From contig NZ_BJVA01000003.1 of assembly GCF_007988905.1 (NCBI RefSeq), forward strand, positions 186,001-250,000: a stretch of 64,000 nt of DNA, written 5' to 3'. A program made the translations under genes and the position numbers. The stretch comes from Gluconobacter kanchanaburiensis NBRC 103587. GTDB lineage: Bacteria; Pseudomonadota; Alphaproteobacteria; Acetobacterales; Acetobacteraceae. Of this stretch, positions 51,535 through 61,707 are shown piece by piece. The notes under the pieces were generated by a model, which was not told the DNA's origin, ran no database searches, and worked only from the letters and a program-made list of their open reading frames with translations. Each line of letters begins with the position of its first letter. Within the stretch, counting starts at the first letter, position 1.

Positions 51535-53133
51535 TCAGGCCGCGCTGATCTCTGCGATCCCATCTTCCAGACGTCCGGCCCGGAGACATAGCCGGCGGTA
51601 AATGGCCTCAAGCTCTGCACCCTCTTCGAGGCGCGGGGCGCAGTAGCGTGGCGGCTGGGGAGGAGAGTCGGGGTAAAGGGCCGCGTAATCATCAGCATTA
51701 TGGAACATTCCACGGGAGCCGTCATCAAGGAAACTTTCAGACGGCGCGCCTTCCGCCAGCAGCAGATCGTGGCTTTCAAGCTCGACATGGATGTAGCGGA
51801 TCGTCTCTGGACGCAGGATCTGAAGAATGGATGTTCCGTTTACGAGATGAAGGGCCGGGATCAGGAAACCATCGATGAACATGGCGTGCAGTGGCGAAAC
51901 CATCAGATCGCGCCTTGGCAGCCCTTCTTCCAGTGCTCCCGCCCGGATGAGAACCGGCAGGATATCCCGGTTGCCGTAAGCGAACAGGGGATCGTAGGCG
52001 CGGCGTCCAATCCAGTGTACGGTCCGGATCTTGCCGTTGGCCGTTAGGATGGCGTCTCCGATCTCCAGATTTTCTACCGGCCGCTCTCCGTCTGGCGTCG
52101 CGATCAGCGTTCCCGGGCAGTAACAGGGCGTTCCAAAACCCATTTCGAGATAATTTCCGCTGGCCGCCTGCGTAAAATAGAGCGGCGAGGTAAAGTCACC
52201 CTGAATGGCGATGTCCTTAACCATCGTCGTTCCGGAAAAGACTTCCAGTCTCCCGCTTGTCCCGTCTTCATCAGGGATGACAGTTGCCCTGACTGTTCCT
52301 CCTGAGGGACTGATATCGGTGAAAACGAGGGCTGCGGATGTCTGGATCGTTACGGGGTTTTCCAGGGATACGCCTGAATCGAGTTGGAGCACCCCACCGC
52401 TGCTGACCGAGATATCAGACAGTATGGCCCCACTATGGGCGATTACCATGCCGCCACTGGACACCGTGGCATTCCGGACTGTGCCGTCAACCACAAGCAC
52501 GCCATCGGATTGAACGGTTACATTCTCGCTCGTCCCCTCCACATCCTGCTCTGCCTGGAAGTGGAGTGTCTCATAGTGCCAGTCATTCCCGCCGCTCCCG
52601 AGGAAGAAAATTGCAGACGAACCCTTAAGAACCGTGTCAGTGGCGGAGCCGCCTGCCTCGATTGTGGAAAGGGCGTCATTCTCCACATGAACGCCGCTGA
52701 CATACCCGCCGCTTTCGACCGTCTGGTAAGCTTTTATTTCCTGATCATAGTATTTGCCAACACCGACATAGGCATTCACGGCCGATCCCTGGACGGTCGT
52801 GTCAAAGGCGCTACCCCCATTTTGAATGATCTGGTTGGCAGGAGCGTCCAGCGCGGTCCAGCCATTAGCTTGATAATAGAATTCGGACAGGATCTGAGTG
52901 TGATCAGCGACGCCACCAGATTGCACAATCTGAGTACCTGCTGAGGTAGGAATATATTCGCCGTAGCTGCTACTATCTTCATAGCCGTGCACGATCGTAT
53001 CGACTGCCGAGCCGAGCACATATTCCGTTACGCCATTGATGGTCAGTCCCGAGACCGTGGCGCCCGCGACAACGGTGATGGAGCCATCGGTCCCGGTTTC
53101 AGTTCCGGACGAAGCCTGAGAGGAAGAAGACAT
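51535..53133 (-). CDS. Hint-domain protein with AIDA-like repeats
   Basis: 532-residue protein. Residues about 10-330 are Gly/Ser/Val-rich strand-loop-strand repeats of AIDA type: QIVQSGGVADHTQI, QIIQNGGSAFDTTVQG, QTVESGGYVSGVHVE, TIEAGGSATDTVLKG, VTVQSDGVLVVDGTVRNATV. This pattern is found in autotransporters that are heptosylated. A Hint_2 domain starts at Cys336 (CYCPGTLIATPDGE), has the DAILTANGKIRTVHWIGRRAY core and SPLHAMFIDG, but no clear C-terminal HN, so autocleavage is possible but splicing unlikely. No signal peptide and no outer-membrane translocator domain are seen, so the export route is unknown. Confidence 0.82.
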   Translation of the reverse strand: MSSSSQASSGTETGTDGSITVVAGATVSGLTINGVTEYVLGSAVDTIVHGYEDSSSYGEYIPTSAGTQIVQSGGVADHTQILSEFYYQANGWTALDAPANQIIQNGGSAFDTTVQGSAVNAYVGVGKYYDQEIKAYQTVESGGYVSGVHVENDALSTIEAGGSATDTVLKGSSAIFFLGSGGNDWHYETLHFQAEQDVEGTSENVTVQSDGVLVVDGTVRNATVSSGGMVIAHSGAILSDISVSSGGVLQLDSGVSLENPVTIQTSAALVFTDISPSGGTVRATVIPDEDGTSGRLEVFSGTTMVKDIAIQGDFTSPLYFTQAASGNYLEMGFGTPCYCPGTLIATPDGERPVENLEIGDAILTANGKIRTVHWIGRRAYDPLFAYGNRDILPVLIRAGALEEGLPRRDLMVSPLHAMFIDGFLIPALHLVNGTSILQILRPETIRYIHVELESHDLLLAEGAPSESFLDDGSRGMFHNADDYAALYPDSPPQPPRYCAPRLEEGAELEAIYRRLCLRAGRLEDGIAEISAA

Positions 53134-54919: not shown

Positions 54920-55126
54920 CTACTCCCGTGTCCGCAGGATCAGCCGCGCCAGAAGCCGCGAGACCACAATAATCAGCAGAAATCCGAGAAGCTGAAGCAC
55001 CATGTTTGGATGGGCGGGCTGACGGCGGAACATGATGAACAGAAGCGGCAGAGCGATCAGATAGCTCAGCCCGATGCGCTTCCAGATGATGGGATCGGTT
55101 TTCGGAAAACGGGGCAGAAGGCTCAT
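54920..55126 (-). CDS. Small two-helix membrane protein
   Basis: 68 residues with two predicted membrane segments (about 19-34, RIGLSYLIALPLLFIMF, and 43-62, VLQLLGFLLIIVVSRLLARLIL) and a charged tail. No family recognised. Its ATG overlaps the MlaF stop by four bases, so it is very likely translated with the lipid-transport genes and may be an accessory subunit. It could equally be an unrelated passenger. Confidence 0.7.
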   Translation of the reverse strand: MSLLPRFPKTDPIIWKRIGLSYLIALPLLFIMFRRQPAHPNMVLQLLGFLLIIVVSRLLARLILRTRE

Positions 55127-55950
55127 TTGCGCAACTCCATGCTAATGGGACCTTCGCGCCGTCCATGGGTGAACTGATCGACCATGGCGTTGCCTGAATT
55201 CATGAGTTCGGATGCCTCGCCCTGCCAGATCAGCTGCCCGCGATAGAGCATGGCCGCACGGTTCCCGATCCGCTGGGCCGAGGCCATGTCATGGGTGATG
55301 GCAATGGCGGTCGAGCCGAGCTTCTGTACGCAGTCCACGATCAGCCCGTCGATGACGGCGCCCATGATCGGGTCCAGTCCGGTCGTGGGTTCGTCGAAGA
55401 ACATGATGTTGGGATTGCCCGCAATGGCACGCGCCAGACCAACGCGTTTCTGCATGCCACCCGAAAGTTCGGATGGGCTCAGATCGCCAACGGACGGGTC
55501 CAGCCCGACCTGTTTGAGCAGGTCACCAGCCATCTGGAGCGCCTGCGCGCGGGATGGGGTGGCGCCATTACGGTCGGAATGTTTGGCGCGGATGCCGAAA
55601 GCCACGTTCTCGCCGACGCTCATGCTGTCGAACAGGGCAGCGTTCTGGAACAGCATCCCGATCTGCCGGCGCAGGGCGTCCTGTCGGGAGCGCGAAGCCG
55701 TCAGGAGGTTTTCACCATCGATCTCGATGCTACCGGCGTCAGGTTCGATCAGGCCGAGGATGCAGCGCAGCAGGACGGATTTGCCTGAGCCGGACCCGCC
55801 AATGATGACCATGGACGTGCCGGCCTCGACATCAAGGTCCACGCCATCGAGCACGATCTTGGAGCCGAAAGCCTTGTGCAGACCCCGGATGCGGATCTTC
55901 GGGGTGCCCAAGGGAGTGCTTGGGGAAGTGCTTACGGGGGGAGTGCTCAT
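55123..55950 (-). CDS. mlaF: Mla-type ABC transporter ATP-binding protein
   Basis: 275-residue ATPase that energises the MlaE permease for phospholipid traffic across the envelope. Walker A GGSGSGKSVLLR (about 55-66), Q-loop region MLFQNAALFDSMSVGENVAFG typical of the MlaF subgroup, signature LSGGMQKRVGLARAI (about 160-174) and Walker B IMFFDEPTTGLDP. An N-terminal extension of about 20 Ser/Thr/Pro-rich residues precedes the core. ATG overlaps the permease stop; a 68-residue membrane protein gene overlaps its own stop. Confidence 0.92.
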   Translation of the reverse strand: MSTPPVSTSPSTPLGTPKIRIRGLHKAFGSKIVLDGVDLDVEAGTSMVIIGGSGSGKSVLLRCILGLIEPDAGSIEIDGENLLTASRSRQDALRRQIGMLFQNAALFDSMSVGENVAFGIRAKHSDRNGATPSRAQALQMAGDLLKQVGLDPSVGDLSPSELSGGMQKRVGLARAIAGNPNIMFFDEPTTGLDPIMGAVIDGLIVDCVQKLGSTAIAITHDMASAQRIGNRAAMLYRGQLIWQGEASELMNSGNAMVDQFTHGRREGPISMELRK

Positions 55951-56732
55951 TGTGAGAAGAACAGGTCCGTCAGGAGGTAATCGAACAGCAGCAGCAGGAT
56001 GGACGCGCCGACGACGGCGGCCGTCGTGGCCGAGCCCACGCCTTCCGCCCCGCCCCGGCTGTTATAGCCGTTATAGCAGCCCAGCAGAGCGATCAGGAAT
56101 CCGAACACTGCTGCTTTGACGAGGCCCACAACGACATCCATCGTCTTGAGCGAGTCCAGCGTGGCGGTGATGTAGGTCGAGGGCGAGAAGCCGAGTTTGG
56201 CGACCGAAACAGTGAAACCACCCATCACGCCCAGAATATCCGCGACCAGCACGAGGCAGGGCAGCGCGATCGTCCCGGCTAGAAGGCGCGGCGTCACGAG
56301 ATATTTCATCGGATCGGTGGAGAGCGTGGTGAGCGCGTCGATCTGGTCGGTCACGCGCATGGTGCCGATCTGCGCAGACATAGCCGCGCCCACACGTCCG
56401 GCCACCATCAGTCCGGCCAGAACCGGGCCAAGCTCGCGGGTTACGGCCAGCACAACGATCCCGGCAATGGCGCTCTGAACGTGATACTGCCCGAAGCCCA
56501 CATAGGACTGAAGCGCAATTACGGCCCCAGAGAACAGGGCGGTGAGGGCCACGACGGGCAGGGAGAAAAACCCCGTCTCGATCAGGCTGGAGAAGAAAAT
56601 CCGCCAGTAAAAAGGCGGTCGCACCAGATGCGACAGAGCCTCCAGCGCGAACAGGGCCAGAGCACCTGCCTGCTTGATAAGGCCGAGAGCGGCGCGGCCA
56701 AGGGCCGCTATGGGGTCAAGAACGGCATTCAC
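55947..56732 (-). CDS. mlaE: Mla-type ABC transporter permease
   Basis: 261-residue permease of the MlaE/YrbE family, with about five membrane helices. The conserved block LAGLMVAGRVGAAMSAQIGTMRVTDQIDALTTLSTDPMKYLVTPRLLAG (about 105-153) is the family signature. An N-terminal helix (about 25-50) precedes the core. The following MlaF gene overlaps by four bases. Unlike the E. coli mla operon, no substrate-binding MlaD, MlaC or STAS-domain MlaB gene is adjacent. The preceding toastrack gene ends 71 bases upstream on the same strand. Confidence 0.92.
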   Translation of the reverse strand: MNAVLDPIAALGRAALGLIKQAGALALFALEALSHLVRPPFYWRIFFSSLIETGFFSLPVVALTALFSGAVIALQSYVGFGQYHVQSAIAGIVVLAVTRELGPVLAGLMVAGRVGAAMSAQIGTMRVTDQIDALTTLSTDPMKYLVTPRLLAGTIALPCLVLVADILGVMGGFTVSVAKLGFSPSTYITATLDSLKTMDVVVGLVKAAVFGFLIALLGCYNGYNSRGGAEGVGSATTAAVVGASILLLLFDYLLTDLFFSQ

Positions 56733-56803: not shown

Positions 56804-58228
56804 TCAGGCGCGGCGTCCGTTAGTTCGCTCCAGATCCCGGAACTGCCGTTCCAGACTGAAATTGGGCGATGTGACGAACTGCTCCATCAGGCCCAGCCGA
56901 CGCTCCATCCGGGCCAGACGGTCCTGAAGGCGGGCCAGCGGATGGCCAGGGGGAACCGAACGGGAGAAATCCTCTGTCGGTTCAGAAGGCTGCCGGAAAC
57001 CCGAAAGGACATCTTTCACCACAGCGCTCGCGCTCGCGGCTGGTGTTTCCCGCCAAGCCGCGCGGTGTTGCGACCAGCTTCGTACGCCCTCGGCATATCC
57101 CGCGGCAGCTTTGTCCAGCGTGGCCCTGAACGGCAGGACGCCCGTCCGGCGATAGCGCCGGAAGAGACGCACGGCCCAGACGATCAGGGCGATTTTCAGT
57201 AGAAGTCCAATCAGGCCGTGGCCACCTGAATGATGGCTGCCGCCACGGGAATGCGTCTGCGATGACGCGGCGGATGCGGCCTCCGGGTTATCTATCTGCA
57301 CATGCAGCCGCCCGAGGATTTTCTGCGTGGCATCGGAAAGAATGGCCGACCCGTCCGGTGCGCTGGTGGTCGTCACCCGTGCCCCGGAAGTTTCCCCTAC
57401 GGAAAGCGTTCCGGATCCGAGGGGGCGTTTCCTGAGGGCCTCACTCACTTTCTTGATGGTAATGTCGCCGCTGCCCAGTAGCGTTACATCTGCATCCCGG
57501 GCGGTGGCGTTCAGCTCGATATCGGACGAGCCGTAATCGCGGACCGTAAGGACGTCCGTATTGCCTTGCCTGACATCAATGTCACCCGAGGACATGGATA
57601 TGAAACTGGCGCTGGATGTGGCGAGATTACCGATGTCCAGATCGCCGCTCGCGAAACTCTGTACTGCCAGCCGCCCGGTCACGAGACCGACAGAGACGTT
57701 TCCGTCTCCTTCCATGTTCAGGGTCAGGCTGTTCGCCTGATCGATGTCCAGATCGCCGCTCCCGCTGGTGGCTGTGATGTCACCGCTGATGCCGCTGACC
57801 CGATATGCCGTGGCATGGCTGTGCGGGGGCTGGATCTTGATGTTTGTCTGGGCTGGTACCATCAGGACCGCACTGTCCTGAGCCGCGCAGTTTTGTGCGG
57901 ATGTCGTGAAGGTCAGCCGATCTTCCTGCATGTCTAGTGTTCCGTGCCCAGCGACGATCCGGGCATCCGTTCCGCCGGTGACAGTCAGATGGTCCAGGCA
58001 GGTTTCCGGGATGACAAGGGTTGCGGCAGCGGTCCGGGTTTCAACGGGTGGAAGCGGTGAGCGTGGCGCGGGAGGGGCCGGGGGCACCGGAGGGACAGGT
58101 GGCACCGGGATAGCTGATGGTGCCGCGACCGGTGCAGCCAGAGCGCTCCCTGCCATTCCGGCGCTTCCCAGTAGAAATGTACAGAGGGCAAGGCGTGAGG
58201 CACGGCGTCGGATCGGTCGAGGGGACAT
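56804..58228 (-). CDS. Toastrack/GIN-like secreted protein with a PspC-like C-terminal tail
   Basis: 474 residues. Signal peptide (cleavage near ALAA, 31-32), a Pro-rich linker (40-60), then a beta-repeat domain (about 65-300) in which SGSGDLDI, ASGDLDIG, SSGDIDVR, GSSDIELN, GSGDITIK and GSGTLSVG recur at about 20-residue steps from residue 192 on. One membrane helix (about 337-354) is followed by a basic, probably cytoplasmic part. The last 44 residues include MEQFVTSPNFSLERQFRDL (447-465), closely similar to the PspC C-terminus of E. coli. It lies in the psp operon after pspA, pspB and another beta-repeat gene, and appears to stand in for PspC. The N-terminal PspC domain is missing. Function is inferred. 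Confidence 0.75.
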   Translation of the reverse strand: MSPRPIRRRASRLALCTFLLGSAGMAGSALAAPVAAPSAIPVPPVPPVPPAPPAPRSPLPPVETRTAAATLVIPETCLDHLTVTGGTDARIVAGHGTLDMQEDRLTFTTSAQNCAAQDSAVLMVPAQTNIKIQPPHSHATAYRVSGISGDITATSGSGDLDIDQANSLTLNMEGDGNVSVGLVTGRLAVQSFASGDLDIGNLATSSASFISMSSGDIDVRQGNTDVLTVRDYGSSDIELNATARDADVTLLGSGDITIKKVSEALRKRPLGSGTLSVGETSGARVTTTSAPDGSAILSDATQKILGRLHVQIDNPEAASAASSQTHSRGGSHHSGGHGLIGLLLKIALIVWAVRLFRRYRRTGVLPFRATLDKAAAGYAEGVRSWSQHRAAWRETPAASASAVVKDVLSGFRQPSEPTEDFSRSVPPGHPLARLQDRLARMERRLGLMEQFVTSPNFSLERQFRDLERTNGRRA

Positions 58229-58231
58229 GTC

Positions 58232-59590
58232 TTATTCTCCCTTCGAACTGTCGCTGGTCGTTGGAGCAGAGTTGGAAGTTGCGGTATTTGCCGAGGGGGA
58301 GGCAGTGTGCGGCGTTCCGCTGTCGGCCGTCGTCGTCTGCTCCGTCTTCGGTACCGAAGCGTTCGGCCGCGAAGCAGGCTGGACGGCTGCCTGTTGTTCT
58401 GTCTGTGCCTGATTCTGAATTGTGGTCTGTGAAGTAGGCTGCCCGGCAGACCGTGCTGGCGCGGAAGCTGTGTTTTCCGGCGTAGTGTTGGCTTCCTGCG
58501 TGACTGACGGACCTGATGTCCCCGGAGAAACCGGCGCGGCGGGCAGCGCGGCTGGCTGCTGACGATCTGTGGAGTGGTTCGACGGCGCGTCCGGCTGTGA
58601 CGGTGCCGACGGGGCAGGGACGTCGTGTGGCTGAGGAACGGAAGGATTAATAGGAGCCGCCGGAGCCACGGGGGCTGGAACAGGCGGAGGAGCCGTCGTC
58701 ACGGGAGTGGTGGGAGTAACGTCTGTCACAGGCGGCTGAACCGGCGTGGCCGGCAAAGGTGCTGGTGTGGCTGCTGCCGGAGGGGCAACGGGAGGCGGTG
58801 GCGTCTGGCGATAGATTACGCCGTTCTGGGCACCGACGCGGACCGTGCCTTTTCCCGATCGGACCATTGGCCCCGATACGGACTCGATATTGACGTCGCC
58901 CGTGCCATTGGCCGCGACCGTCGCAACTGTTGCCTGCCCAAGAATGGTGGCGCTCGCCTGATCGGCCGTAATCAGCGTCAGCGCATCAATGGTGCCACCA
59001 GAAAGCGTCATGCCCGCATTCTGGGTCAACTGTGCGGAAAGGGCCGCAAGCTGCGCGGTATCGGCGGTCAGGGTCGAGGTCCCAGACGCCACGATCTGAG
59101 CCGCGCGCTCGAGGGATTTGATGTGGACGGTGGAGGCACCCTGCATGTCCAGATCCAGAGACTGGGTATTTTCGATGTCCATGGTCGTGGAATTGAGGCT
59201 GGCGTCCAGTGAGGCGAGCTTTCCCGTGATGATGAAATGGGTGTCGTGGCTGTCGTGGATCGTCAGGCCGGTACTGGGGGAGATGCTGATCGTCAGCTTT
59301 CCGTTGGGGGCGCAGGACTTCGTGGCGATGGAGATGCGGCTTTGCGCTTCTTCCTTGCCAGTATGCATGGAGACCTGTGCAAGGCTGCTTGAATCAAGCG
59401 TTGCCCCGTCCTTCATGCCGGGATCGACCACGACCCTGACCTGTCCGGTGCAGGGGATCGACAGGTCCAGATCTTCTCCGGACAGGGTCATGCGCGCGGC
59501 GTGGGCTGCGGGCGACAGCAGGACGGTACCCGCCAGCAGGGCCAGAAGCGCCGGGCGACGGCCGGAAAAGGGGACGGGGCGGCGTGTCAT
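58232..59590 (-). CDS. Secreted toastrack/GIN-like beta-repeat protein with a long Pro/Thr-rich tail
   Basis: 452 residues with a signal peptide ending AHAA (about 32). Residues about 35-260 are strand-rich, with short repeats such as GASTVHIKS, GTSTLTADT, GGTIDALTL and NGTGDVNIE. From about residue 265 to the end the protein is a low-complexity Pro, Thr, Ser, Ala and Gln tail with no membrane helix, which looks like a flexible periplasmic linker. Its ATG overlaps the pspB stop and the next gene starts two bases after its stop, so it is part of the psp operon. No enzymatic motif. Probably a periplasmic partner of the PspC-like protein that follows. Confidence 0.7.
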   Translation of the reverse strand: MTRRPVPFSGRRPALLALLAGTVLLSPAAHAARMTLSGEDLDLSIPCTGQVRVVVDPGMKDGATLDSSSLAQVSMHTGKEEAQSRISIATKSCAPNGKLTISISPSTGLTIHDSHDTHFIITGKLASLDASLNSTTMDIENTQSLDLDMQGASTVHIKSLERAAQIVASGTSTLTADTAQLAALSAQLTQNAGMTLSGGTIDALTLITADQASATILGQATVATVAANGTGDVNIESVSGPMVRSGKGTVRVGAQNGVIYRQTPPPPVAPPAAATPAPLPATPVQPPVTDVTPTTPVTTAPPPVPAPVAPAAPINPSVPQPHDVPAPSAPSQPDAPSNHSTDRQQPAALPAAPVSPGTSGPSVTQEANTTPENTASAPARSAGQPTSQTTIQNQAQTEQQAAVQPASRPNASVPKTEQTTTADSGTPHTASPSANTATSNSAPTTSDSSKGE

Positions 59591-59826
59591 CGTGCGTTCC
59601 TTGCTCTCCAGCCCGGGATATCCTCGTCGAGGATGCGTTCGAGCTGGTCGATCCTTTCTTCCAGACGCGTAGCATGGGCTTCGGCCTGTGTCAGGGCGGC
59701 CTGAAGCATGGGGTCCTGCTGTGGTCCGCCTTTCGGCGTGCCATTGGCATGTTTGACCATGCTGACGATGGACCAGCAGATAATGGCCGTGATGGGAACA
59801 AGGAAGGGAAAGATGGACGAATTCAT
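59587..59826 (-). CDS. pspB: Envelope stress response membrane protein PspB
   Basis: 79-residue single-pass inner-membrane protein, which in enterobacteria controls PspF release by PspA together with PspC. The N-terminal helix is at about 4-22 (IFPFLVPITAIICWSIVSM) and the C-terminal amphipathic segment THATRLEERIDQLERILDEDIPGWRAR-type tail (about 54-77) matches the RIxxLExILDxExPxWR motif of PspB. Its length is close to that of E. coli PspB (74). A GAAAGG element precedes the ATG. It starts 27 bases after pspA. Confidence 0.87.
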   Translation of the reverse strand: MNSSIFPFLVPITAIICWSIVSMVKHANGTPKGGPQQDPMLQAALTQAEAHATRLEERIDQLERILDEDIPGWRARNAR

Positions 59827-59853: not shown

Positions 59854-60537
59854 TCAGCCTGCGTTTTTCTTTTCGGCCACACGGCGCTTGAGGGCTTCGA
59901 ACTCGTTTTCCACGACGGCATCGGTTTCCAGCGCCGCGAGTTCTTCCTGAAGCGTCGGGTGGCCGGTGCGGCGGCCCAGATCATAAGCCTCCGCCTTGCC
60001 TTCGAGTTCATCAAGAGCGCGTTCCACCTGATCGAAACGGTTGAGCGTGTCGTCGATGCGGCTGTCGTAGAGCTTTTCGCGGGTTTTCAGGCGGCCCTGT
60101 GCGGTGCGGGCGCGGATGGAGAGCGCCTTTTCGCGGGATTTGGCGTCGGCGATCTTGGCCTGAAGTTTGGAGATGTCGTCGTTCTGCTGGTCCAGGCCGT
60201 CCGAGATCTGGGCGATCTGCTGTTCGAGTGCCTCACGGGACTGCTCGACGCTGTGGCGGGCAGCGAGGGCGGCCTTCGCCAGATCGTCACGGTCACGTTC
60301 GATGGCGAGGCCGGCCTTGCGGTGCCATTCGTCTTCTTCGTGCATCATGGTGCGGACGCGGCGTTCGAGCTGCTTGCGCTCCGCGATCGTCCGGACGGCC
60401 TGACTGCGGACTTCAACCAGCGTGTCTTCCATTTCCTGAATGACCAGGCGGATCATTTTCTGCGGGTCCTCGGCATTGGCGAGAATCGCATTCAGATTGG
60501 AGTTCACGATATCGGCGAGACGAGAAAAAATACCCAT
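59854..60537 (-). CDS. pspA: Phage shock protein A
   Basis: Peripheral membrane ESCRT-III-like protein that binds PspF to silence the operon and stabilises damaged membrane. 227 residues, nearly entirely coiled coil. The N-terminus MGIFSRLADIVNSNLNAIL is the amphipathic membrane-binding helix, followed by EDPQKMIRLVIQEMEDTL, the family signature. AAGGA lies eight bases before the ATG. It is the first gene of the leftward operon and diverges from pspF; the 114-base gap contains no recognisable sigma-54 site. Confidence 0.95.
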   Translation of the reverse strand: MGIFSRLADIVNSNLNAILANAEDPQKMIRLVIQEMEDTLVEVRSQAVRTIAERKQLERRVRTMMHEEDEWHRKAGLAIERDRDDLAKAALAARHSVEQSREALEQQIAQISDGLDQQNDDISKLQAKIADAKSREKALSIRARTAQGRLKTREKLYDSRIDDTLNRFDQVERALDELEGKAEAYDLGRRTGHPTLQEELAALETDAVVENEFEALKRRVAEKKNAG

Positions 60538-60651
60538 GATGCTTTCCTTCCTGCTGGAGAGATTTAGGACAGAATGCCCACACTTGTCAGCGAGGCTGTT
60601 TTGAGGGTGTTATGAACTTAAGACCGAAACAGGGGCGTGAGAGACCATAAA

Positions 60652-61707
60652 ATGGCGAGAAGCACCGATATGGACGAGGTGCCGACCCCGATCGGGCGGG
60701 CTCCGGCATTTCTGGGGATGCTGGATCAGGTCTCCCGTCTGGCGCCCCTGCGACGTCCGGTTCTGGTGATCGGGGAGCGCGGGACCGGCAAGGAACTGGT
60801 GGCGGCGCGTCTGGCCCTGCTGTCGGAGCGCTGGGACCGGCCGCTGGTGAAGCTCAACTGCGCGGCGCTCCCCGAAGCGCTGCTGGATAGCGAACTGTTC
60901 GGCCATGAGGCGGGCGCTTTCACCGGGGCGCAGAAGCGTCGTCTGTCGCGCTTTGAGCGGGCGGACGGGGGCACGATGTTTCTGGATGAGATCGGCACCG
61001 CATCTCAGGCTGTGCAGGAAAAGCTGCTGCGGGTGATTGAATACGGCAGCTTCGAGCGTGTGGGCGGCAGCGAGACCATCCGGGTGGATGTGCGGTTGAT
61101 CGGGGCGACCAATGCGGACCTGCCAGCCATGGCGCGGGAGGGACGTTTCCGGGCGGATCTGCTGGACCGGCTGGCCTTTGATGTTGTGAACATTCCGCCG
61201 CTGCGGGCGCGTCCGGAAGATATTTCCCTGCTGGCCGAGCATTTCGCCACCCGTATGAGTGCGGAGCTGGGGCGGAAGATGTTTGCGGGGTTCACGGAGC
61301 GCGCGCTGGTGCGGTTGCAGGCCTATGACTGGCCCGGCAATGTCCGCGAGTTGCGTAATGTGGTGGAGCGCAGCGTTTACAGGATGGATCGGCCCGAAAA
61401 GGCGCTGGACGAGATTGTGCTGGACCCGTTCGTAGCGCCGGACTGGCCGAGCGTTCAGGGTTCGCACGCGGTGGCGCCCCGGGCGGCTCCGGCGGCGAGA
61501 GAGGTGCTGAGTTTTCCCCGTGACTTTGAGGCTGATGTCCGGACGCATGAGCGCAGTTTGCTGGAAGCGGCTCTGCGCGAGGCGCAGTTCAGCCAGCGGC
61601 GCGCGGCAGAGCTGCTGGGCCTGACTTATTACCAGTTCCGCCACCATCTGCGGTTGCATGGTCTGGCGGACAAGGAGGCTCGCAAGGCGCTGGGTGGGAA
61701 GGGGTGA
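60652..61707 (+). CDS. pspF: Sigma-54-dependent psp operon activator PspF
   Basis: 351-residue enhancer-binding protein that acts on sigma-54 RNA polymerase. It begins with the AAA+ domain, without the usual N-terminal receiver, as is typical of PspF. Walker A GERGTGKE (41-48), the sigma-54 contacting loop GAFTGA (88-93), Walker B GGTMFLDEIG (106-115) and the R-finger region RADLLDRL are present. A C-terminal Fis-type helix-turn-helix (QRRAAELLGLTYYQFRHHLRLHGL, about 318-342) binds DNA. The ATG at 60652 is preferred over the GTG at 60637 because a GAGAG element lies eight bases before it. Divergent from pspA. Confidence 0.93.
   Translation: MARSTDMDEVPTPIGRAPAFLGMLDQVSRLAPLRRPVLVIGERGTGKELVAARLALLSERWDRPLVKLNCAALPEALLDSELFGHEAGAFTGAQKRRLSRFERADGGTMFLDEIGTASQAVQEKLLRVIEYGSFERVGGSETIRVDVRLIGATNADLPAMAREGRFRADLLDRLAFDVVNIPPLRARPEDISLLAEHFATRMSAELGRKMFAGFTERALVRLQAYDWPGNVRELRNVVERSVYRMDRPEKALDEIVLDPFVAPDWPSVQGSHAVAPRAAPAAREVLSFPRDFEADVRTHERSLLEAALREAQFSQRRAAELLGLTYYQFRHHLRLHGLADKEARKALGGKG

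Follow-up and report, generated by a model that had tools for sequence, protein, structure and literature searches.

A toastrack beta-helix protein with a PspC C-terminal tail in the psp operon of Gluconobacter kanchanaburiensis and related acetic acid bacteria

In Escherichia coli and Yersinia, PspC carries a C-terminal tail preceded by a membrane helix, and its gene follows pspB in the psp operon. In the sections of the published work cited here, the tail was reported to bind PspA in both organisms, a contact made inside the cell (PMC5596341, PMC3068692). The E. coli study, in the same sections, assigned the contact with PspB to the membrane part of PspC (residues 40–68) and found no two-hybrid interaction between PspB and residues 69–119 (PMC3068692). 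It also placed the PspC C-terminus in the periplasm, with topology programs disagreeing and a switch between two topologies proposed, and the Yersinia work calls the C-terminus cytoplasmic (PMC5596341). The pspFAB operons of some Alphaproteobacteria encode multiple Toastrack proteins in place of PspC (for example ANQ40502.1), according to the main-text parts of Ravi et al. (2024, PMC11237479), who also argue that Toastrack is intracellular. Toastrack proteins wired to PspA homologues further include LiaG and YvlB (DUF4097) of Bacillus subtilis, and the DUF4097 domain of LiaG is described as extracellular in the portion of PMC9239133 drawn on here.

Here, we analyzed TR2, in which a toastrack domain is combined with a PspC tail. 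TR2 resembles canonical PspC in its tail, in having a membrane helix before it and in its operon position downstream of pspB, and it resembles LiaG and YvlB in its connection with PspA. In contrast to canonical PspC, TR2 has no 58-position N-terminal domain and begins instead with a signal-peptide-like start and a beta-helix of ~220 residues. The Lia system differs from TR2 in being controlled by LiaFSR, not PspF, and the same portion of PMC9239133 mentions no PspC tail.

TR2 lies in the window, the whole 64-kb stretch of G. kanchanaburiensis DNA that was analyzed (64,000 nucleotides). In transcription order, the operon comprises a divergent pspF and pspA-pspB-TR1-TR2-mlaE-mlaF, with the following features:

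55123..55950, minus strand: mlaF-type ABC ATPase (PF00005; PRK11831 MlaF, 170 bits, below cut-off)
55947..56732, minus strand: mlaE-type lipid ABC permease, the next gene downstream of TR2 (PF02405)
56804..58228, minus strand: TR2, toastrack protein with PspC tail, 474 aa (ORF, profiles and model)
58232..59590, minus strand: TR1 (toastrack-1), 452 aa (DUF2807 at E 0.28, under cut-off)
59587..59826, minus strand: pspB, 79 aa (PF06667; TIGR02976, 77 bits, cut-off 51.7)
59854..60537, minus strand: pspA (TIGR02977, 283 bits)
60538..60636, minus strand: pspF-pspA intergenic region, with no sigma-54 −24/−12 element recognized and with GCTGACAAG, common to relatives
60637..61707, plus strand: pspF, divergent, with the GAFTGA motif (TIGR02974, 509 bits; motif)

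The pspB gene and the start of TR1 share 4 bases, and TR1 and TR2 are separated by 3 bases. TR2 has the operon context of a PspC, with pspA and pspB beside a divergent pspF. TR1, which sits between pspB and TR2, is toastrack-like and tailless: it has a signal-peptide-like start, a toastrack-like beta-helix and a long Pro-rich C-terminal part, and neither a membrane helix nor a tail was found in it by eye. The DUF2807 profile matched 5 of 18 relatives of TR1 at E ≤ 0.01. The operons of Ravi et al., as given in the main-text parts of their paper, are probably of the same kind as that in the window, having pspF, pspA, pspB, several toastrack genes and no PspC. Further along the window, a 532-aa protein (51535–53133, minus strand) shows repeats and a CPGTLIATPDGERPVENLEIGDAILT stretch that by eye resembles a Hint-type domain.

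ORF calling in the window gave TR2 as a real ORF of 474 codons on the minus strand, with these parts:

58133..58228, minus strand: signal peptide, residues ~1–32 (hydropathy and eye)
57359..58030, minus strand: toastrack beta-helix, residues 67–290 (DUF2807/DUF4097; model; Foldseek to 3pet and 4opw)
57143..57217, minus strand: membrane helix, residues 338–362, followed by a positively charged stretch (model; hydropathy and charge)
56831..56974, minus strand: PspC C-terminal tail, residues 419–466 (TIGR02978; tail HMM)

An earlier note on this DNA had claimed a signal peptide, a toastrack-like repeat with a step of about 20 residues and a single membrane helix, and all three were recovered. Hydropathy and inspection by eye showed positive residues at the start, a hydrophobic core and an ALAA end, a signal-peptide-like arrangement. 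Both Pfam DUF2807 (E 3e-9, 37.3 bits vs. gathering cut-off 24.2) and Pfam DUF4097 'Toastrack' (E 1.1e-7, 31.9 bits vs. gathering cut-off 22.9) matched TR2 over their cut-offs, within residues 97–260, and the LiaG model NF049997 matched at E 1.1e-5, below its whole-protein cut-off. The AlphaFold model, computed as a single chain from a 30-row alignment, had a mean pLDDT of 78, with values mostly above 90 in the toastrack and of ~60–80 in the tail. Its strands are stacked, with six beta-helix steps that begin near residues 178, 197, 217, 237, 256, and 275; one membrane helix spans residues 338–362, and two tail helices span residues 430–453 and 455–471. In a Foldseek search of the PDB, the top matches of the model were mostly DUF2807-type structures (3pet, 3jx8, and 4opw), with E values of 1e-3 to 1e-2, probabilities of 0.99–1.00 and target TM-scores of 0.36–0.61, and the second-ranked match was a Legionella Dot/Icm chain. 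These Bacteroidales 'putative adhesins' are the best PDB matches of TR2 in both sequence and fold; by their titles, they are a putative lipoprotein, lipid binding protein or adhesin. The absence of the N-terminal PspC domain, also claimed before, was confirmed in that PF04024 had no match in TR2 at E ≤ 1. TR2 therefore belongs by profile to the Toastrack family and, judged by the defining N-terminal domain, is not a PspC.

The tail of TR2 is homologous to that of PspC. The NCBIfam PspC model TIGR02978 aligned residues 419–466 of TR2 with its positions 74–121 of 121 (E 1.4e-6); confined to these positions, the match reached 28.2 bits vs. the full-length equivalog score of 104. A second PspC model, NF007973, matched at E 2.8e-4, likewise under its whole-protein cut-off. 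In addition, an HMM was built from 43 canonical PspC tails with no fusion included. Its loci came from TIGR02978 searches: among 54 sampled, 48 held a match to the TR2 tail at E ≤ 0.01 and 5 with a doubtful best ORF or end were dropped, the resulting set leaning slightly towards TR2 because the ORF of each locus was chosen by its phmmer match to the TR2 tail. TR2 scored 53.9 bits with this HMM (E 1.2e-15 among 5058 ORFs), whereas the maxima were 10.1 bits for 5000 shuffles of the protein and 11.6 bits for 5000 shuffles of the tail (2110 and 4955 of them, respectively, being reported by the HMM program). All matches at E < 1e-4 among the 5058 ORFs were canonical PspC or toastrack fusions, that of G049 being split between frames. 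Thus, the profile check proposed for the tail gave significant matches to TIGR02978 and to the canonical-tail HMM alike. Moreover, the TR2 tail shares 16 of 38 residues with E. coli K-12 PspC, and their local alignment scored 73, against 49 for the best of 2000 tail shuffles. The likeness to the E. coli tail described in the earlier note therefore stands, with 10 rather than 11 of 19 positions identical. The region is short and PspB tails are likewise coiled-coil-like, features that would suit a chance or generic coiled-coil likeness; however, PspB proteins matched the canonical-tail HMM only at E 0.2 or worse, and the shuffles stayed at or below 11.6 bits. We rejected this explanation, to which we give practically no credence.

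Similar proteins were sought in other genomes. With TR2 as the query, 25 of 150 family genomes gave matches at E ≤ 0.001, including toastrack-only and Pro-rich matches. TIGR02978 matched 44 of 249 family genomes, and these matches comprised canonical PspC (model 3–121 and similar) in frames of ~110–340 aa and, in frames of ~400–790 aa, partial matches ending in the tail, with a few fitting neither class. Thirty fusions representing 11 genera of the family were aligned, taken from the family TIGR02978 matches and nine named Gluconobacter loci, the latter being among or close to the 26 genomes of the genus and not independent of them. The genus of the window entered this alignment through G000, G218, and the nine loci, its other genomes being left out, as were G128 (L079), with its uncertain start, and G049 (L088), whose tail is out of frame with the toastrack. 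At E ≤ 0.01, TIGR02978 matched all 30 fusions and DUF2807 matched 28.

The fusions occur in two types of loci, each of which groups in the toastrack tree. The first type has the order pspF|pspA-pspB-TR1-fusion(s)-mlaE-mlaF and is found in genera g1, g9, g26, g38, g49, g79, and g85, with a tandem pair of fusions in g9 and g85; genus g23 (G022) has the first type without pspF and pspA. The second type is pspB-fusion alone (six genomes of genera g44, g50, and g80). Wherever the locus stretch extends far enough, pspB lies directly upstream of TR1 in the first type or of the fusion in the second. Replacement of PspC is not universal, because a separate pspF-pspABC operon of the canonical kind accompanies the fusion (frame-split in G049) and PspB in the second-type genomes G043, G049, G080, and G178. 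The other two, G128 and G145, have no canonical psp operon at a completeness of 85% and 66%, respectively. In genera g2, g56, g71, and g86, a canonical pspC is followed by a tailless toastrack gene.

A draw of 385 genomes from the class contained 49 with TIGR02978 matches, among which no fusion was recognized outside the family. None of the five odd TIGR02978 cases inspected in the class and family draws (G473, G506, G308, G591, and G021) contained a toastrack, and no similar genes were matched in the PLSDB plasmid collection. In one odd case, L195 (G308), the PspC N-terminal domain and tail share one frame but are separated by ~70 residues more than in the model. In another, L197 (G591), small membrane proteins whose tails resemble those of PspB/PspC are lined up beside pspABC, and partial TIGR02978 matches like those of G591 occur in G413 and G281. 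PspB duplicates in psp operons were reported previously, in the main-text parts of PMC11237479.

A canonical pspC elsewhere in the genome of the window, the counter-case raised in the earlier note, was not found: PF04024, the PspC N-terminal domain, had no match at E ≤ 1 in this genome (2.92 Mb, 99.97% complete). Nor did PF04024 match any of the 30 aligned fusions at E ≤ 0.01. In line with the Acetobacteraceae survey that the note had called for, first-type, second-type, and canonical control genomes were searched at E ≤ 0.1. No PF04024 match passed the cut-off in 20 of 20 first-type genomes, seven of which gave sub-threshold matches (E 0.03–0.09); in contrast, matches over the cut-off were present in four of the six second-type genomes, as in all six canonical controls.

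Comparison of the fusions identified the tail as the most constrained region, under strong purifying selection. The mean pairwise identity among the 30 fusions was 0.57 in the tail, 0.34 in the toastrack, 0.33 in the start, 0.30 in the membrane helix, 0.27 in the cytoplasmic spacer, and 0.26 in the linker. Furthermore, in ten Gluconobacter-type genes, pN/pS was 0.07 for the tail, 0.23 for the membrane helix, 0.30 for the cytoplasmic spacer, 0.37 for the toastrack, 0.45 for the linker, and 0.49 for the signal/Pro-rich part.

The topology of the fusions was assessed from hydropathy and charge, a simple calculation rather than a trained predictor. Near its start, each of the 30 fusions has a hydrophobic stretch, and a single strong membrane segment follows the toastrack, with one extra hydropathy window over the threshold in L071. 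In all 30, the 15 residues after this segment carry a net charge of +1 to +6; compared with the 15 residues before it, the charge is higher in 26, equal in 3, and lower in 1. The positive charge after the membrane segment therefore favors a cytoplasmic tail. An intracellular Toastrack, as argued for other families, would put the tail on the opposite side. Ravi et al. base their argument on fusions in which Toastrack is C-terminal to membrane helices (main-text parts of PMC11237479), and four of the 30 fusions here have a neutral or reversed charge balance. However, in the present fusions the toastrack lies without exception between a hydrophobic, signal-peptide-like stretch and the membrane helix, and the positive flank lies on the tail side in 26, which makes an intracellular Toastrack very improbable in this case.

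The earlier note knew of no description of the arrangement. Novelty seems confined to the retention of the PspC tail and the probable outward orientation, since the exchange of PspC for Toastrack proteins at the operon level has been published for some Alphaproteobacteria (PMC11237479). The main-text parts of PMC11237479 make no mention of a PspC tail on a toastrack protein or of a periplasmic facing, and the words periplasm and Gluconobacter are absent from its main text. In the open-access literature, judged mostly by title and abstract, we recognized no description of a PspC tail on a toastrack protein.

PspC seems to have been rebuilt in acetic acid bacteria, its front half gone and its tail placed on a probably outward-facing beta-helix, which amounts to a natural domain swap. 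Both the topology of PspC and the cue sensed by PspBC are disputed, and the same tail welded to a signal-peptide-led beta-helix makes a natural topology reporter. The fusion speaks in favor of a cytoplasmic location of the tail and points to the tail as the portable signaling part of PspC. Moreover, the view of a plain replacement of PspC in these bacteria is refined by the fusion, which also casts doubt on the intracellular placement of Toastrack domains in this class of Psp systems.

We consider it probable that TR2 is the PspC equivalent of the operon, with a periplasmic toastrack, one inner-membrane helix, and a cytoplasmic tail that works PspA. The signal peptide would place the toastrack beta-helix in the periplasm, and the single helix would cross the inner membrane, so that the C-terminal tail would lie on the cytoplasmic side. 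The toastrack may read a periplasmic cue, or a partner (soluble TR1, for example), and relay the signal through the helix. The tail might then take PspA, perhaps leaving PspB, and this capture of PspA would release PspF and bring PspA to the membrane. The data themselves give the anatomy of TR2, the homology and constraint of its tail, the operon, the lack of ordinary PspC, and the joint absence of the tail protein and PspA; we infer the cellular location of the TR2 domains as well as the sensed cue. A binding switch of the tail is likely by analogy with the work on E. coli and Yersinia: the fused tail corresponds to the E. coli PspC fragment 69–119, and in Yersinia the PspC C-terminal domain reportedly holds PspB in the off state. 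By the same analogy, TR2 would work like PspC. The failure of PspB to interact with this fragment in the E. coli two-hybrid tests, and the periplasmic or switching C-terminus considered in that study (PMC3068692), speak against so simple a picture. The fused sensor proposed in the earlier note is thus supported, the signaling itself being the part that we infer.

The pspA promoter bears on a different reading, in which TR2 is a membrane scaffold and not a sensor, its tail docking PspA or PspB at the membrane for repair and its toastrack anchoring to envelope complexes, with induction decided elsewhere. In all 15 canonical loci, a −24/−12 sigma-54 element (8 or more of 10 positions, GG and GC fixed) was recognized at most 200 bases from pspA; it was recognized in none of the 23 first-type loci and in none of the four canonical operons that second-type genomes carry, these counts and those for sigma-54, activators, and the RpoN box being uncorrected for kinship. 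The classic induction route is therefore uncertain in the fusion genomes, consistent with a scaffold. CTGACAAG is found upstream of pspA in 11 of the 15 first-type loci inspected, and sigma-70-like matches upstream of pspA in fusion operons are mostly weak, with no common spacing.

The activator and its sigma factor argue against the scaffold. PspF retains GAFTGA in 11 of the 12 fusion operons read, the remaining one having GSFTGA. Sigma-54 was present in 19 of 24 genomes tested and absent from G054, G131, G261, and G267, which are the psp-less members of the genus (all but G180) among the genomes tested, and from G022. The absence of PspF coincides with that of sigma-54 in the five genomes tested for both. 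The kept GAFTGA motif and this joint absence therefore indicate regulation, and we regard the scaffold as unlikely. Two members of the activator family (E ≤ 1e-20) were found in 12 of 13 first-type genomes with pspF, with a third, weak match in G048. The second activator, located by a loosened Walker-A pattern in six genomes (four with pspF), lacks GAFTGA in all six. On this sample, PspF looks like the only GAFTGA-type sigma-54 activator left where a first-type fusion keeps sigma-54. In addition, the RpoN box (L165–L183) reads Q/M-RRTVAKYRE in 12 of 12 first-type genomes, beginning with Q in eight and M in four, and A-RRTVAKYRE in 7 of 7 other genomes.

Natural deletions within the genus provided a further comparison. 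Among its 26 genomes, PspA and the tail protein occur in the same 21, and neither occurs in the other five. These five psp-less genomes keep a toastrack match, which is TR1 by its neighborhood. Of the 24 genomes that could be mapped, 17 show the complete gene order, 2 are truncated by contig ends, and 5 have cysH-TR1-mlaE-mlaF-radA, with the psp genes gone on one side of TR1 and TR2 gone on the other. As the five form a single clade (support 0.975), they count as one lineage. TR1, which is probably secreted, stays beside mlaEF in all five (L085, L086, and L141–L143), a survival after psp loss that hints at a role of TR1 with MlaEF.

Such a role could be taken further, with TR1 and TR2 as accessory parts of the MlaEF lipid transporter, the tail recruiting PspA to transport sites and Psp control being secondary. 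This would agree with the position of mlaE-mlaF directly downstream of the fusion in the mapped first-type loci and with the persistence of TR1 beside mlaE in the five psp-less genomes. However, mlaEF is kept in those five genomes while TR2 and pspA are absent, so MlaEF does not need TR2 there, and the stretches around second-type fusions gave no mlaE or mlaF match. We therefore hold the accessory reading to be distinctly improbable. A broader and tentative picture, which is possible but rather doubtful, is that acetic acid bacteria rebuilt the Psp system into a receptor system facing the periplasm. TR2 would read an envelope cue, perhaps one of lipid transport, with its toastrack and work PspB and PspA by means of the borrowed PspC tail, and TR1 would link the system to MlaEF. 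Sigma-54 would have become a one-client factor serving only PspF, its RpoN box drifting from A to Q/M together with the pspA promoter.

G022 (L077/L184; 100% complete) lacks PspA, PspF, and sigma-54 but keeps pspB, TR1, TR2, and mlaEF. In its tail, the first helix is kept, and SRGS stands where relatives have FRDL. A frameshift behind the altered tail was rejected, as no other frame restores the FRDL tail. The change suggests F463 and L466 as candidate PspA contacts, on the sequence of a single genome that cannot carry the claim. Since G022 keeps the fusion without PspA, PspF, and sigma-54, the protein has some use beyond PspA there.
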